Assembly: GCA_020073265.1 (NCBI GenBank)
Contig: JAIQFN010000053.1
Span: 1-42,014 of the forward strand
Origin: Terriglobia bacterium
GTDB lineage: Bacteria; Acidobacteriota; Terriglobia; Bryobacterales; Bryobacteraceae
Length of the DNA: 42,014 nt
Reading direction: 5' to 3'
Position 1 is the stretch's first letter. Each line of letters begins with the position of its first letter. The position numbers were made by a program, and so were the translations under genes. The notes below the pieces were generated by a model. It searched no databases and was not told the origin of the DNA. It was given only the letters and a program-made list of their open reading frames with translations. This document shows positions 14,346 to 40,437 of the stretch, one piece after another.

Positions 14346-14387
14346 GGCCGGCTGAAAGCCGGCTGCAGCCAGGATTGGCTGCCCCAC
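14346..14387 (+). repeat. Double-hairpin dispersed repeat, copy A
   Basis: This 42-base element contains two adjacent hairpins. The first is GCCGGCT/AGCCGGC around GAA. The second is GCAGCCA/TGGCTGC around GGAT. It ends in CCCCAC. Copies B (31162-31202) and C (40395-40437) have the same layout. In copy C both stems change on both sides so that pairing is kept. Copy A lies between the divergent SDR and methyltransferase genes. Confidence 0.8.
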
Positions 14388-14459
14388 GGTGGTAAACTAA
14401 GAACGCGTTGCCTCGCCTGTGCGTCGATCGCCGCACGACGCTTTTTTCGCTTCCGCTCC

Positions 14460-15224
14460 ATGCGATCAGAACCCGTACGTTATTTGTCCGAACCCGCGGC
14501 CGTCTCGATGGACGACCGCTGGTACGAGATTGCCAGTCTCGAGCATCCCTGGATCGTGCGCCGCTTCGAAGTGCTGCGCCGGTTGGGCGACTCGCTGATC
14601 CAGCAGTCCAGCTCGATCGCCGAGTTCGGATGCGGGCATGGGCTGCTGCAGCGCCAGGTGGAAGATTTCTACCACCTGCCAGTCACCGGATTCGACCTGA
14701 ATGAAGCGGCGTTGAAACAGACCGCCGCGCGATCCAGCCCGGTGTGCTGTTACGACTTGCTGGAGCAGCGGCCGGAGTACGAGGGCCGCTTCGATTTGAT
14801 TCTGCTGTTCGACGTCCTCGAGCACATTCAGGATGAGGAGGCGTTTCTCCGGGCGCTGTTGTTTCATCTGGGGCCTGCCGGGCGTGTCTTGATCAACGTG
14901 CCAGCATTCCAGTCGCTGGCCTCGGCGTACGATCGCGCGGTCGGTCATCTGCGCCGCTACAACGTGCGGTCGCTTTCGAACGCGGCTCAAAGGAGCGGAA
15001 TGGATCTTGCGAGCTGGACCTATTGGGGGCTGCCGCTGATGCCTCTGCTGATGTTGCGAAAGCTGTGGCTGGCTGGGCGATCGGACCAGCACATCGTTTC
15101 CGCCGGGTTCGAGAGCCACGGGCGGGTGATGGATCGGATGCTCTTATGGCTGTCCCGTTGCGAGCCGATTCCACAACACCTGGTGGGGACTTCGTTGATG
15201 GGCGTCTTGGTTCGATCGTTCTGA
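14460..15224 (+). CDS. SAM-dependent methyltransferase of a surface-glycan locus
   Basis: This 254-residue class I methyltransferase has motif I SIAEFGCGHGLL at about residues 52-63, VTGFDLNEAALKQ (motif II) and 'FDLILLFDVLEHIQDEEAFL', the 'DVLEHI' element of the Methyltransf_11/23 group. 'RVLINVPAFQSLASAYDRAVGHLRRY' is common in methyltransferases encoded in polysaccharide clusters. No signal peptide is seen. ATG 14460 has no evident ribosome-binding site; an in-frame ATG at 14508 (MDDRWYEI) is an alternative. It is the first of five genes with gaps of at most ten bases or overlaps, ending with a GT2 enzyme at 20584. It may methylate a sugar or the lipid carrier-linked glycan, but the acceptor is unknown. 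Confidence 0.85.
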   Translation: MRSEPVRYLSEPAAVSMDDRWYEIASLEHPWIVRRFEVLRRLGDSLIQQSSSIAEFGCGHGLLQRQVEDFYHLPVTGFDLNEAALKQTAARSSPVCCYDLLEQRPEYEGRFDLILLFDVLEHIQDEEAFLRALLFHLGPAGRVLINVPAFQSLASAYDRAVGHLRRYNVRSLSNAAQRSGMDLASWTYWGLPLMPLLMLRKLWLAGRSDQHIVSAGFESHGRVMDRMLLWLSRCEPIPQHLVGTSLMGVLVRSF

Positions 15225-20584: not shown

Positions 20585-22217
20585 CCGCGGCGTAGAGCCA
20601 CCACCAATCCGACTCGGCGCGGAGCCGGAATCCCGACTGGATGCTCGGCAGGTAGTTTCGAAACAGCGCGCGGGCGTCGGGTTCCGAAGAGGCCGGATGC
20701 TTCGGCACCATCACGATGTCGGCCGATCCGAACAACCAGGCGGGCGATGGCTTGTGCCTATCGTTGAAGGTGTGATTGAAGGCCAGCGCCGGCGAGCCGC
20801 CGCGCGCCGGGGGCCGGAGCAGCGCGTAAGGAAACGGATTCACCATGTCGAGCGTGAATACGGTGTCGCGCGGTGTCGAGAACTTTTTGAGCAGGGCCGC
20901 ACCGTCGTTGACGTAGTCGACGTATGTGCGCCCGTTGCTCCGTCGGTCGGCTTCCGTGCCGTCGGGCGTGTCGTAGAGAAGCAGTTTCGCCAGGTGCGGC
21001 GCGCGGAAGCGGGCGATTTCGGATTCCGGCGGATTGTTCGTGGCCTCAATGAACGCGTACACAACACCGCTTGCGTTGCTGAAGAACGCCGGTGCGTAAC
21101 AAATCAGGCCGAGTAGGACAAGGATGGTGTGGGGTCGGGGGAAGCCGGTGGAGCCGGTCTGAGACTCCACAGCGCGGCCGTGTTCCACCAGAAGAATCGC
21201 GAGCAGCGCGTTGAGCGGGTAGCCGCTGGGCTGCGCATTGGTGGCCAGCAGGAGAGCGCCGCCGGTGAAGACCAGTGCTGTCGCGATGAGCGGGCGAAGC
21301 GTGGTGGTGATGCTCACCAGGAGCGCGAGCAGGGCCAGCGGAAGCAGTTCCGCGAATCCTCTCGCGAACGACCAGCGGATGTTCCACAGCGAAAGGCCGG
21401 AACCGCGGGCCTGGCTCATCAGGTGCAGGTCGTTCCAAACGGCGAGAAAGTCGAAGCGCAAGTACGCCATCATCGCGAGGCCGCCCGCGAGAAAACCCGC
21501 GAGAGTCCAGACGATTCGGCGGCGAGCGGGCCTCGCGATGGCGATGCACAGTGCAACCAGGCAGTAGCTGGGTTTGAGAAACAGGAGAGCGACGGAAATG
21601 ATGCCGGTCGAAATTCCGCCGAGTTTGCTCTGGCCGCCCGGCCGGAAACATTCCAGGACCACCAGGCCTACCAGAGCGTATCCGTAGCGGTTGTAGAGCA
21701 TCGCGTGGCTCAGCGTGTTGGGCGGCCAGCCGATCGGAAAAGGCGCGACGGCGATGAGCATGAGCAGTGCCGCGCTAAGGATCGCTGGTATCGCAGGCAT
21801 TCGCCGCCGGCTCAGTGCATAGGCCCAGCCACCGATGATCGCTCCGACGAGAGCGCTCATGTAGCCGACGCCATTGGCGGAATTGTGTGCGAGCTTCAGG
21901 CCGGCGGCGGAAAGCAGTCCCAGCAGCGGTCCCATGCTGGGGCTGAAATCGACGTCGGGACGCTGGCCGTTGAGCACTCGCCAGCCCGCGTCGAAGACCA
22001 GAAAGATGTCGTGGCCGAAGATTCGAGTGTGAACCGAGCCGATGGCAGCCGTCGCGGCTGAGAGAGCCAGGATCAGCACCGCCGCGCACACGTCCGTTAG
22101 CGGGCTGGCTGGCTTGGACCAGACCTCGGTCAAGCGATCGATCCGGCGAGCTCGCTGCTCCTCGCCGCCTGGCGTCGAGACGAGTCTCGATGCGGCACGC
22201 GCGAGTGCGTGCGCCAC
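20571..22217 (-). CDS. Polytopic membrane protein, possibly a GT-C fold glycosyltransferase
   Basis: This 548-residue protein starts at GTG 22217, seven bases after a GGAGG site that begins within the stop of the upstream gene. About 10-11 hydrophobic segments span residues 40-375. A soluble C-terminal region of about 160 residues follows (VYAFIEATNNPPESEIARFR ... SDWWWLYAAVNAP). The first periplasmic loop contains 'FDAGWRVLNGQRPDVDFSPSMGP', an Asp-rich first loop like that of GT-C enzymes but without a strict DE/DD pair. I cannot name the family. It is co-directional and closely spaced with the 1518-residue secreted protein, so it may modify or serve that protein. It is convergent with the surface-glycan operon. 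Confidence 0.68.
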   Translation of the reverse strand: MAHALARAASRLVSTPGGEEQRARRIDRLTEVWSKPASPLTDVCAAVLILALSAATAAIGSVHTRIFGHDIFLVFDAGWRVLNGQRPDVDFSPSMGPLLGLLSAAGLKLAHNSANGVGYMSALVGAIIGGWAYALSRRRMPAIPAILSAALLMLIAVAPFPIGWPPNTLSHAMLYNRYGYALVGLVVLECFRPGGQSKLGGISTGIISVALLFLKPSYCLVALCIAIARPARRRIVWTLAGFLAGGLAMMAYLRFDFLAVWNDLHLMSQARGSGLSLWNIRWSFARGFAELLPLALLALLVSITTTLRPLIATALVFTGGALLLATNAQPSGYPLNALLAILLVEHGRAVESQTGSTGFPRPHTILVLLGLICYAPAFFSNASGVVYAFIEATNNPPESEIARFRAPHLAKLLLYDTPDGTEADRRSNGRTYVDYVNDGAALLKKFSTPRDTVFTLDMVNPFPYALLRPPARGGSPALAFNHTFNDRHKPSPAWLFGSADIVMVPKHPASSEPDARALFRNYLPSIQSGFRLRAESDWWWLYAAVNAP

Positions 22218-30538: not shown

Positions 30539-31162
30539 GTGGACGCCACGAAGTACACGGTTGAATCAACCGGCCCGCGCCTCGAGGAGTTTCTCGACAC
30601 CATCCTCGACAACATGGATCTGGACGTGGAGTACGAGATCCTGGACGGCGCGCACACCCATCCGGACCTGGAAGATCCCGATCTGATCGTGAAATTTTCC
30701 GGCCCGGACGTCGATCTGATACTGGCCAACAAGGCCGAGGTGCTGCTGGCGCTCGAGTTCCTGGCCATGGAGACGCTGCGGCTGCCGCCCGACCATCATT
30801 CGCGGCTGTGCTTCGACGCCAATGATTACCGGCTCTTGCGCATCGAAGAGCTTCGGGTCAGCGCGCTCACCGCGGCCGAACGGGTGAAGAAGACGCAGCG
30901 GCCGTTCCACTTCAGTCCCATGAGCAGCCGCGAGCGGCGCATCATTCATCTCAGCCTGCGCAACGAAACCGACATCCGCAGCGAGAGCACCGGCTCGGGT
31001 CCGTTCCGGCAGGTGGTGGTGCTGCCGGTGGGCATGCCGCTGCCGGAGCCGATCCGTCCGCCTCGCCCGGGTCCGCCGCGCGGGGAGGGCCGCGATGGAC
31101 GGGATCGCCGGGGTGGTCCGGGTAGAAGGGGTGGTCCTCCGCACCGGGGCCGCCGCCCGTAG
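30539..31162 (+). CDS. khpB: RNA-binding protein KhpB (Jag/SpoIIIJ-associated), KH and R3H domains with Arg-Gly-rich tail
   Basis: The protein has 207 residues. GTG 30539 follows the yidC stop by 11 bases with an AGGA site; an earlier in-frame ATG at 30458 lies inside yidC. Residues about 8-100 hold a type II KH domain: 'GPRLEEFLDTILDNMDLDVEYEI', 'LIVKFSGPDVDLILANKAEVLLALEFLAM' with an altered G-x-x-G (GPDVDLILANKAEV). Residues about 105-170 are an R3H domain (SSRERRIIHLSLRN and SESTGSGPFRQVVVLP). The N-terminal Jag_N domain found in many homologues is missing. The last 35 residues are Arg/Gly/Pro-rich (GRDGRDRRGGPGRRGG), an RGG-like RNA-binding tail. It probably acts as a global RNA chaperone with KhpA; in other bacteria it affects cell division and envelope genes. 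Confidence 0.9.
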   Translation: MDATKYTVESTGPRLEEFLDTILDNMDLDVEYEILDGAHTHPDLEDPDLIVKFSGPDVDLILANKAEVLLALEFLAMETLRLPPDHHSRLCFDANDYRLLRIEELRVSALTAAERVKKTQRPFHFSPMSSRERRIIHLSLRNETDIRSESTGSGPFRQVVVLPVGMPLPEPIRPPRPGPPRGEGRDGRDRRGGPGRRGGPPHRGRRP

Positions 31163-31202
31163 TGGGGCAGCCAATCCTGGCTGCAGCCGGCTTCAGCCGG
31201 CA
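31162..31202 (-). repeat. Double-hairpin dispersed repeat, copy B
   Basis: This copy is inverted relative to copies A and C. The reverse strand reads GCCGGCTGAAGCCGGC, then GCAGCCAGGATTGGCTGC and CCCCAC; the first loop is one base shorter than in copy A and the second hairpin is identical. It starts at the last base of the khpB stop codon and ends five bases before the mnmE ribosome-binding site, so it is transcribed inside the operon. Confidence 0.8.
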
Positions 31203-31207
31203 ACCTC

Positions 31208-31222
31208 AAGGAGCAACACCTG
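31208..31222 (+). promoter_or_regulatory. Ribosome-binding site and CTG start codon of mnmE
   Basis: AAGGAG (31208-31213), six bases, then CTG (31220-31222). No ATG, GTG or TTG occurs in this frame between the khpB stop (31160) and GTG 31280, and the latter would remove the conserved N-terminal '[17 protein letters not shown]' of MnmE. The spacing is ideal, so CTG is the best start. Confidence 0.65.
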
Positions 31223-32557
31223 CTACGCGATACCATCGTCGCAATTGCCACGCCGCCAGGCCGCTCGGGTCTGGGAATCGTGCGCCTTTCCGGCGATCAA
31301 GCGCGCGACATCGCCGCTAGCACTCTGCGCTTTCACTCCGCGCACGAATGGAAGTCCTGGTCCGCCGCTCTGGCCGAACTGATCGACGATTCCGGCTGCG
31401 TGGTCGATCAAGTGGTGGCGACTTACTACGCCGGCCCGCGCTCCTACACCGGCGACGACCTGGTAGAGATCTCCTGCCACGGCTCGCCGGTCGTGCTCCG
31501 GTTCGCGGTGGAGCGCGCCAGCCAGGCGGGCGCGCGCCTGGCCGAGCCCGGCGAATTCACGCTGCGCGCCTATCTCAACGGACGAATCGACCTGCCGCAA
31601 GCCGAAGCGGTCCGCGATCTCATCGACGCCACCACCTTGTACCAGGCCCGCGTGGCCGCCCAGCAGGTGGAAGGCTCCGTCTCGCGGCGCATCCGTCCGG
31701 TCAAGGAACAACTGCTGGAGCTCATCGCGCTGCTCGAAGCCGGCATCGACTTCGCCGAAGATGACGTCAGCGTCGCACCGGCCGGTGAAATCCTGCGCCG
31801 GATCGCGCCCATCGAGCAGGCGCTCACCAAACTGATCGCCAGCTTCGACTATGGCCGGCTGGTTCACTCCGGCCTGACGCTCGCCATCGTCGGCCGTCCC
31901 AACGTCGGGAAGAGCAGCCTCTTCAACCGCCTGCTCGAACAGGACCGCGCCATCGTCACCTCGATCGCCGGCACCACGCGCGATCTGGTGTCCGAAGTGG
32001 CGGCCATCGATGGGATCCCCATCAAGTTCGTCGACACCGCGGGCATCCGCGTCGGACAGGACCTGGTGGAAACGTTGGGCGTCGAGCGCAGTTACCAGGC
32101 CATGGCGGACGCCGACGTCACCCTGGTGGTGCTGGACCTTTCCGAACCGGTGCAAGCTGACGACCTGGCGCTCATCGAGCGCGCCCGCGGGCAAGGCCGC
32201 TACATCCTGGTGGGCAACAAGTCCGATCTGCCGCGCGTGGCCGAACCGCCCGAAGACTACGACGCCGTATCCGCGATCACCGGCGACGGGTTGGATCTTT
32301 TGCGCCAGCGAATCGCGCCGGCCGCCGCCCGCGAGCAGGATTCCGGTTTCATCACCAGCATCCGGCACGCGCAGTTGCTGCGCGAGAGCGTGGAGGCGCT
32401 GGCCCAGTCGCGCAAGGCCGCCGAGTTCGGCATCCCGCACGAGATGCTGCTGCTGGATCTTTACGCCGCGCTCCGGCCCATCGACGCCATCACCGGCGCC
32501 ACCACGGCCGACGATATCCTGAACCGTATTTTTTCGACCTTCTGCATCGGGAAATAA
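31220..32557 (+). CDS. mnmE: tRNA modification GTPase MnmE (TrmE)
   Basis: The protein has 445 residues from CTG 31220 ([20 protein letters not shown]), a normal length. The N-terminal tetrahydrofolate-binding domain (1-118) ends in [23 protein letters not shown]. The helical domain surrounds a Ras-like G domain (about 215-370) with GRPNVGKSS (225-233, G1), AGTTRD (G2), DTAGI (G3) and NKSD (G4). The C-terminus is FCIGK with the invariant cysteine. With MnmG it installs the carboxymethylaminomethyl group at U34 of certain tRNAs. It is last in the rpmH-yidC cluster and is separated from khpB by the structured repeat copy B. The non-canonical start may limit its expression. Confidence 0.95.
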
Positions 32558-40322: not shown

Positions 40323-40394
40323 CTTTCTTTGTGAGGCGGGCGATCCTGCCTGCCGCCGTGCTGCTGAGCGGCGTCCTGATTCGTGCATTTCGAG

Positions 40395-40437
40395 TGCCGG
40401 CCGGAAGGCCGGCTGCGGCCAAGATTGGCCGCCCCAC
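40395..40437 (+). repeat. Double-hairpin dispersed repeat, copy C
   Basis: First hairpin GCCGGCC/GGCCGGC around GGAA; second GCGGCCA/TGGCCGC around AGAT; then CCCCAC. Compared with copy A, a T-A pair in stem 1 has become C-G and an A-T pair in stem 2 has become G-C, keeping both stems intact. It lies between the convergent rlmB and ligase genes. Confidence 0.8.

Follow-up and report, generated by a model that had tools for sequence, protein, structure and literature searches.

A family of two-hairpin REP elements, probably mobile and linked to a single RAYT gene, in a soil acidobacterium

The genome of a soil acidobacterium contains a family of at least 150 tiny dispersed DNA elements that, judging from sequence comparisons, are probably mobile. 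They are very likely non-autonomous REP elements of about 41 nt that are spread in trans by the single RAYT (TnpA-REP) of this genome. This reading rests on their copy number, two compensating stems, a GTGG-type foot and a RAYT gene with inverted flanking copies, together with co-variation of RAYT and stems across genomes, placement at stop codons and an element-free junction in relatives. REPs accompanied by a RAYT are known as a kind; what looks new is a class of REPs with two hairpins that is tied to one clade of RAYTs.

Results

Copies in the window

The window is the whole stretch of 42,014 nt that was analysed, contig C25 of genome G000 (6.41 Mb, 131 contigs). It holds three copies exactly where the original prediction placed them: copy A (14346..14387, plus strand), copy B (31162..31202, minus strand) and copy C (40395..40437, plus strand). 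They score 72, 65 and 58 bits, respectively, against a covariance model whose training sequences they resemble. Both hairpins are present in the best fold of each copy as single-stranded DNA (z = -3.7 to -4.9 versus shuffles). In copy A, which was delimited with the model and the DNA fold, stem 1 pairs 14347-14353 with 14357-14363, stem 2 pairs 14365-14371 with 14376-14382, and the foot at 14383-14387 reads GTGGG on the minus strand. The guide strand of copy B, which begins with GTGGG, is the plus strand. The two 7-bp hairpins that had been predicted are found in copies A and C (7/7 bp), but stem 1 of copy B has only 6 bp and a 4-nt loop (6/7 bp). The CCCCAC sequence said to follow them is also present, but its first C is paired and the unpaired tail beyond stem 2 is CCCAC. 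Read from the foot, the element consists of GTGGG, a 7-bp hairpin of the GCAGCCA/TGGCTGC type, one base, and a second hairpin of 6-7 bp that is of the GCCGGC/GCCGGC or GCCGCC/GGCGGC type. The compensatory changes noticed earlier are real: T-A in stem 1 of copy A becomes C-G in copy C, and pair 3 of stem 2 is G-C in copy C instead of A-T.

When filters are turned off, the model finds a degenerate fourth copy in the window (40331..40373, minus strand; 25.6 bits, E = 0.00074) that has unpaired positions in the model alignment. The next-best match is noise (12 bits). This fourth copy is the inverted partner of copy C, which is therefore half of an inverted REP pair (40331-40437) with GTGG-type ends facing outward.

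The divergent, in-operon and convergent gaps originally assigned to these copies were recovered as well. Copy A lies between divergent SDR and methyltransferase genes (own gene caller and Pfam). By Pfam, copy B directly follows the stop codon of an R3H-domain gene (jag) ahead of mnmE, and copy C separates convergent SpoU methylase and DNA ligase genes. No Rfam family matches the window at the gathering threshold, and no match to copy A was found in a plasmid collection at E = 0.001. Copy A was not seen beside the SDR gene in the three same-genus loci compared (L218, L219 and L223). No conserved two-sided junction that would allow a full empty-site alignment was found in relatives for copies A and C. 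By eye, only a short basic stretch is visible beyond the SDR gene start in the window (14388-14480), and the same three relatives have the end of a small basic protein there on the other strand. This protein resembles bS21.

Copy number and controls

A degenerate pattern allowing up to three mismatches occurs at 152 places in the genome, 76 on each strand, and its reversed counterpart occurs at none. The original prediction was to be given up if the genome held only the three window copies, and the whole-genome covariance model search points the other way. All 150 scored candidates match (E <= 2.4e-5), and since these were drawn from 14201 first-look candidates, 150 is a floor for the copy number. 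Fourteen in-register sequences (12 of G000 and two from the RAYT flanks of relatives) went into the model, because a MAFFT alignment of 44 copies had stem 1 out of register as a result of variable loop lengths and was discarded.

Among 100 of the 152 places that were listed, 99 fall within the stretches analysed further, which total 286 kb with a few other loci. A finder for two hairpins followed by CC[CT]AC returns 108 matches in these 286 kb versus 6 in the reversed sequence. Two of the 108 are opposite-strand readings of other copies, and the remaining 106 copies were kept for the counts below; these loci were selected by pattern, and stem counts lean to the consensus. The two hairpins are 0-2 nt apart in all 106 (the finder allowed up to 3). 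The GTGGG foot is present, with one base separating GTGG from the stem, and its constancy is partly by construction because the finder demanded this end. The elements share with REPs a short palindrome in high copy number, a GT[AG]G tetranucleotide at the hairpin foot and a dispersed distribution, with 96 of the 106 copies in gaps between genes. They depart from the canonical REP in having two hairpins rather than one.

Covariation in the stems

Standard pairs fill 98.5% of the 1334 cells in an alignment of 122 model matches, of which 104 are distinct, versus 91.0% in shuffles. Cells changed on both sides number 83 versus 21.0 in shuffles, and they fall to 1-9 when the partner is slid by 1-3 columns. 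A weaker measure, the number of further pair types, gives 11 versus 9.0, and 8 of 500 shuffles reach 11. The main switch in stem 1 is G-C/C-G (pair 5); in stem 2 they are A-T/G-C (pair 3) and C-G/G-C (pair 5). Stem-breaking changes had been named beforehand as a second ground for giving up the idea, and the changes that we see preserve the stems. The alignment was fitted to the structure and its members were selected for likeness, and within one subfamily the copies have a change in common by descent. Covariation within this genome partly reflects amplified subfamilies. The stronger and more independent evidence comes from comparing RAYT loci with one another: entire stems are different there, and they still pair.

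The original prediction left it open whether selection acts on folded RNA or on single-stranded DNA. G-U pairs occupy only 4 of the 1334 cells, and copies in co-directional gaps are oriented with transcription in 23 cases and against it in 25. These observations favour the DNA half of that proposal over the RNA half.

Placement near genes and paired copies

With gene calls from a simple caller of our own (coding fraction 0.86), 48 of the 106 copies lie in co-directional gaps, 45 in convergent gaps and 3 in divergent gaps, while 6 overlap a predicted gene by at least 20 nt and 4 are at the edges of the analysed stretches. The median distance to a stop codon is 3.5 nt from the foot end (n = 70) and 35 nt from the tail end (n = 68). 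Of the 48 copies in co-directional gaps, 35 are closer to the upstream stop than to the next start (medians 4.5 versus 43 nt), and none of 2000 random placements within the same gaps gives so low a median. Just outside the foot there is an excess of A/T (71% and 68% at the first two bases, n = 106), and no fixed insertion motif or cleavage dinucleotide was found at the 106 copies. According to the available text of PMC3733652, other REPs are already known to lie behind genes, to form heterodimers and to provide a stop codon from their ends.

Pairs were counted with a looser match (123 copies, up to 4 substitutions). Inverted pairs of the BIME/REPIN kind are present: there are 24 pairs within 150 nt, 19 with their feet outward, 2 inward and 3 in tandem, and one of the 24 belongs to the second REP family described below. 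The remaining 75 of the 123 are single copies. In 16 of the 24 pairs, the two partners are unlike at pair 5 of stem 2, a number as high being reached in 204 of 10000 shuffles. The G-C type at this position is carried by 16 of 48 paired copies versus 3 of 75 singles (Fisher p = 1.7e-5).

The RAYT gene and its flanking copies

Three genes in this genome match PF01797 (L009, L010 and L011). The single matching RAYT is that of L011 (G000:C86:42671-43330, minus strand), which matches both PF01797 and REP_Tyr_transpos and is framed by inverted element copies at 1395 (minus) and 2024 (plus) of the locus. The gene that the original prediction proposed to look for is therefore present, and it is flanked by copies of the dispersed element in the manner of a REPtron, as in several relatives. 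A search of named genomes for relatives, in which 80 of 132 loci were kept, was topped by E-value by a Bryobacterales genome (Acidobacteriota). A loose pattern places the element on both sides of the gene in L042, L043, L044, L049, L053, L054, L056 and L058, and the RAYT of L042 is 66% identical to that of G000.

The L011 protein scores 68.7 bits against NCBIfam NF047646, which is under the curated cut-off of 80 and still makes it the best NCBIfam family. All 34 aligned relatives match the same family at E <= 0.001. A PDB search with the single protein gave no match at E = 0.001, and a profile of the 34 relatives has the solved TnpArep 4er8 as its best match (E = 3.4e-11). The residues, including a conserved HUH motif, are those of a class 2 Y1 enzyme: H105, H107, W143 and Q144 of A1 are invariant in the 34 aligned sequences, and Y164, N168 and R153 of A1 occur in at least 90% of them. 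The Y-motif reads YIEQN, with Tyr followed by Asn at +4, and an Asn at this distance from the catalytic Tyr marks class 2. The stretch WQ....D[HR]..R is also conserved among the 34, and the guide-reading residues W94/Q95/R104 were equated with this RAYT by spacing.

The flanks of each RAYT were compared for their best inverted repeat, whose median length is 42 nt in the two-hairpin clade (51 loci with sufficient flank) and 26 nt for RAYTs outside the clade (37 loci). The RAYT stop codon falls at the hairpin 1 loop in 13 of 36 right flanks with two hairpins, and elsewhere in the element in another 11. RAYT C-termini run into the flanking element at L063, L065, L078 and L130, for example, with ends such as GLKPAAG, and at such loci the last residues of the enzyme are thus encoded by the repeat.

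One RAYT clade with two hairpins

Of the 111 RAYT loci, 90 entered the tree: 14 gave results identical to those of others and were left out as duplicate sequences, and 7 more had a frame that was short or held a stop or unknown residue. A strict mechanical two-hairpin label is positive for 40 of the 90. All 40 fall among the 53 loci of one Acidobacteriota clade (support 99/94), and none among the 37 outside it, of which 13 belong to an Acidobacteriota sister group and 24 to other phyla. A relaxed label that accepts any two-hairpin report with mismatches is positive for 48 of 53 inside the clade and 6 of 37 outside (L079, L084, L085, L097, L106 and L119). Inside the clade, this finder reports no two hairpins for L069, L070, L073, L089 and L137, and L070 has little upstream flank. 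The split is consequently strong, not absolute. The strict label needs 12 changes on the tree, which is rooted at its midpoint, 9 of them forced by supported branches. Across this one clade the element regularly includes a second hairpin, and we infer that the two-hairpin build may have arisen once.

At the 29 loci where both flanks were read, the stem arms on the left match those on the right with an identity of 0.90, versus 0.56 (maximum 0.68) when right flanks are redealt, and none of 5000 trials reaches the observed value; the arms of L011 were entered by hand. Such likeness would also arise from gene conversion, which counts against reading it as support for a RAYT-driven family. RAYT distance correlates with stem distance across 28 loci that hold 15 stem-1 arms and 17 stem-2 arms (Mantel rho = 0.41, 0 of 2000 permutations).

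The element pattern matches in 26 of 121 genomes. Of the 8 genomes with a close RAYT, 6 have at least 40 elements, versus 3 of 113 others (p = 6e-7), where close means at least 61% identity and at least 240 bits, G000 is counted and the thresholds were set after seeing the data. Several genomes go against this link. G070 has 136 elements and RAYT fragments only, the RAYTs of G052 (92 elements) and G003 (44) are all more distant, and G051 has 12 elements and no RAYT at E = 1e-10, whereas G040 and G018 have just 8 and 4 elements despite a close RAYT.

The jag-mnmE junction

When the junction that holds copy B is aligned with four same-genus genomes, this element is found only in G000. G001 and G002 carry GTAGGGCAAGTCTCCGACTTGCC there instead, a sequence with 146 places in G001, 181 in G002 and none in G000 (up to 3 mismatches). 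Two of the G002 places, on one strand, are 68 and 32 nt from a G002 RAYT. The element at the G003 junction resembles a family with 267 places in that genome, three of them beside its RAYT.

Forty-one genomes were searched and 30 loci were read, and jag was found upstream of mnmE in 23. REP-like hairpins of five sequence types occur at 6 of these 23 junctions (G000, G001, G002, G003, G010 and G012). Nine are compact (21-43 nt) and have no hairpin of 6 bp or more, and eight are longer or otherwise built. In G024, another REP-like type precedes mnmE, and jag was not detected at that locus. A plain scan for GT[AG]G hairpins gives 6 matches within the 160 nt that precede mnmE, and 3 more in other parts of the 95.7 kb. 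The reversed control gives 10 matches over whole loci, which puts single matches away from the junction at noise level. The junction comparison is comparative evidence of a putative insertion. The junction was picked because G000 has a copy there, and it consequently illustrates presence and absence rather than a hot spot.

Between the jag stop and the conserved mnmE start (window 31162-31282) there is no in-frame ATG, GTG or TTG, and an AAGGAG lies six bases ahead of a CTG at 31220. Either mnmE may have lost its usual start through the REP, or its translation may begin at a non-standard codon.

Other repeats and Y1 genes in the genome

A second, larger REP family consists of GTGGCGCACGCACTCGTGCGTGC and a second hairpin, and it has a window copy with one mismatch (22172-22217, minus strand). 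It occurs at no fewer than 100 exact genome places and at 205 with up to 3 mismatches (reversed control 1), the 205 including some first-family copies. No copy was found around the three PF01797 genes in the stretches analysed. The RAYTs of L147, L149 and L150 are flanked by similar ends, and the second family may be an orphan whose RAYT was lost or is unassembled.

At L010 (1406-2262), a REP_Tyr-like gene is framed by perfect 21-nt inverted repeats starting GGGGACAG, which fits the TIRYT motif GGGGWSAS as given in the available text of PMC3733652, making L010 a TIRYT-type unit in G000. L009 (1262-2400) contains an IS200-like gene that scores above the NCBIfam IS200 cut-off and sits directly behind another reading frame. 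We take that frame to be glutamate-tRNA-ligase-like. A 94-nt stretch near the end of the frame has an 84% identical second copy beyond the gene, and several further repeats are present.

Discussion

The suggestion that these are REP elements mobilised by a RAYT is upheld by at least 150 copies, compensating stems and a RAYT flanked by the element, features from which we infer the mobilisation itself. If the guide strand becomes single-stranded, GTGGG and the adjacent hairpin could fold. The HUH/Tyr enzyme would then bind foot and hairpin, cut beside the hairpin and paste the single-stranded DNA elsewhere, and selection would retain insertions that land just behind genes. Single-strand binding and cutting have been demonstrated for other TnpA-REPs, and one enzyme cleaved at CC or CA when the foot was GTGG, according to the available portion of PMC8266576. 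The second hairpin might provide an extra contact, a second end or a brake on read-through. A more specific and rather doubtful proposal is that it is a true part of the transposase substrate that was invented once at the base of the clade. Both ends would then be contained in one 41-nt unit with one hairpin per subunit, and RAYT and both stems would have co-evolved as lock and key. In IS608, the left and right ends serve one hairpin per subunit, as this proposal has it for the two hairpins. If it is true, a lone element could be a self-sufficient substrate.

Hairpins that follow stop codons could instead be retained at the RNA level, for protection, processing or termination at mRNA 3' ends, with no transposase involved. 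The short distance from foot to stop, the 35 of 48 co-directional copies nearer to the upstream stop and the preference for convergent and co-directional over divergent gaps all agree with such a role. It is nonetheless improbable as the main explanation, because the two orientations are about equally frequent, G-U pairs are nearly absent, 9 of the 23 jag-mnmE junctions manage without a hairpin, no terminator-like T run was found around copy C (the only place scanned), and the RAYT flanks are left unexplained. A secondary RNA effect may still exist. The copies could also be decayed ends of a TIRYT-type transposon that moves as a whole, RAYT and two inverted ends together. The tight framing of the RAYT by inverted copies is what such a unit would look like, "double palindromic TIRs" appear in the available text of PMC3733652, and relatives hold up to 12 RAYT-like matches per genome, some of them fragments, which means that the unit may sometimes move whole. 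We nevertheless consider this origin very improbable for a genome with one such RAYT and at least 150 elements, 24 close pairs within 150 nt that are too short to enclose a RAYT, and feet that read GGGGCAG or GGGGCGG and do not fit GGGGWSAS. Finally, short GC-rich palindromes are common and this sequence is GC-rich, but chance or compositional likeness of unrelated hairpins has a negligible probability and is ruled out by the reversed-pattern and reversed-sequence controls.

A RAYT-driven REP family shares dispersed palindromes and the GT[AG]G foot with REP/BIME and TnpA-REP of E. coli and with REPIN/RAYT of Pseudomonas and Stenotrophomonas, as far as these are covered by the available text of PMC8266576, PMC3116915 and PMC3686654. 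REP/RAYT systems described in the accessible part of PMC8266576 likewise have a class 2-like RAYT with flanking copies and a location behind genes, and the E. coli y-z pairs, like those of G000, are inverted pairs of unlike subtypes. The E. coli REP in the same portion (PMC8266576) is one imperfect hairpin and the studied group 3 REP one short perfect hairpin, whereas the G000 element has two adjacent hairpins; the experimentally studied systems described so far there have one hairpin. The IS200/IS605 ends of IS608 and ISDra2 share the HUH/Tyr enzyme, subterminal hairpins and a 5' guide tetranucleotide, but the G000 element is non-autonomous and its flanking copies are inverted and alike (PMC8266576 and PMC6006769, available sections).

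TIRYTs and TIRtrons, some of which occur in Acidobacteria, resemble the present case in a Y1 gene framed by inverted repeats, sometimes two palindromes, that recur as a family, and the TIRs of P. putida and P. fluorescens are a degenerate REP joined to another stem-loop (excerpts of PMC3733652). The GTGG foot and the conserved guide-reading stretch differ here, in a comparison by text description that leaves room for a closer likeness (PMC3733652, same excerpts). No description of two-hairpin REPs in Bryobacterales was found in the literature searched, which was thin on subscription journals. Solibacter usitatus is a related acidobacterium. Its class 3 TnpA-Y1 is likewise a Y1 gene with high-copy structures beside it, about 600 in number, according to the available text of PMC6006769. 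Class 3 has a Gln Y-motif and a CnGA foot in that text (PMC6006769), and the G000 system has YIEQN, with Asn at +4, and GTGG instead; the two are set apart by description, and some copies may be identical.

Several RAYT reading frames end inside the element, which is a warning for annotators. In this clade the substrate has a regular build of another kind, many enzymes are naturally paired with substrates whose stems differ, and species of the same genus have different dominant families. Together these are a ready panel for asking which features a RAYT recognises and whether REP movement occurs in trans.
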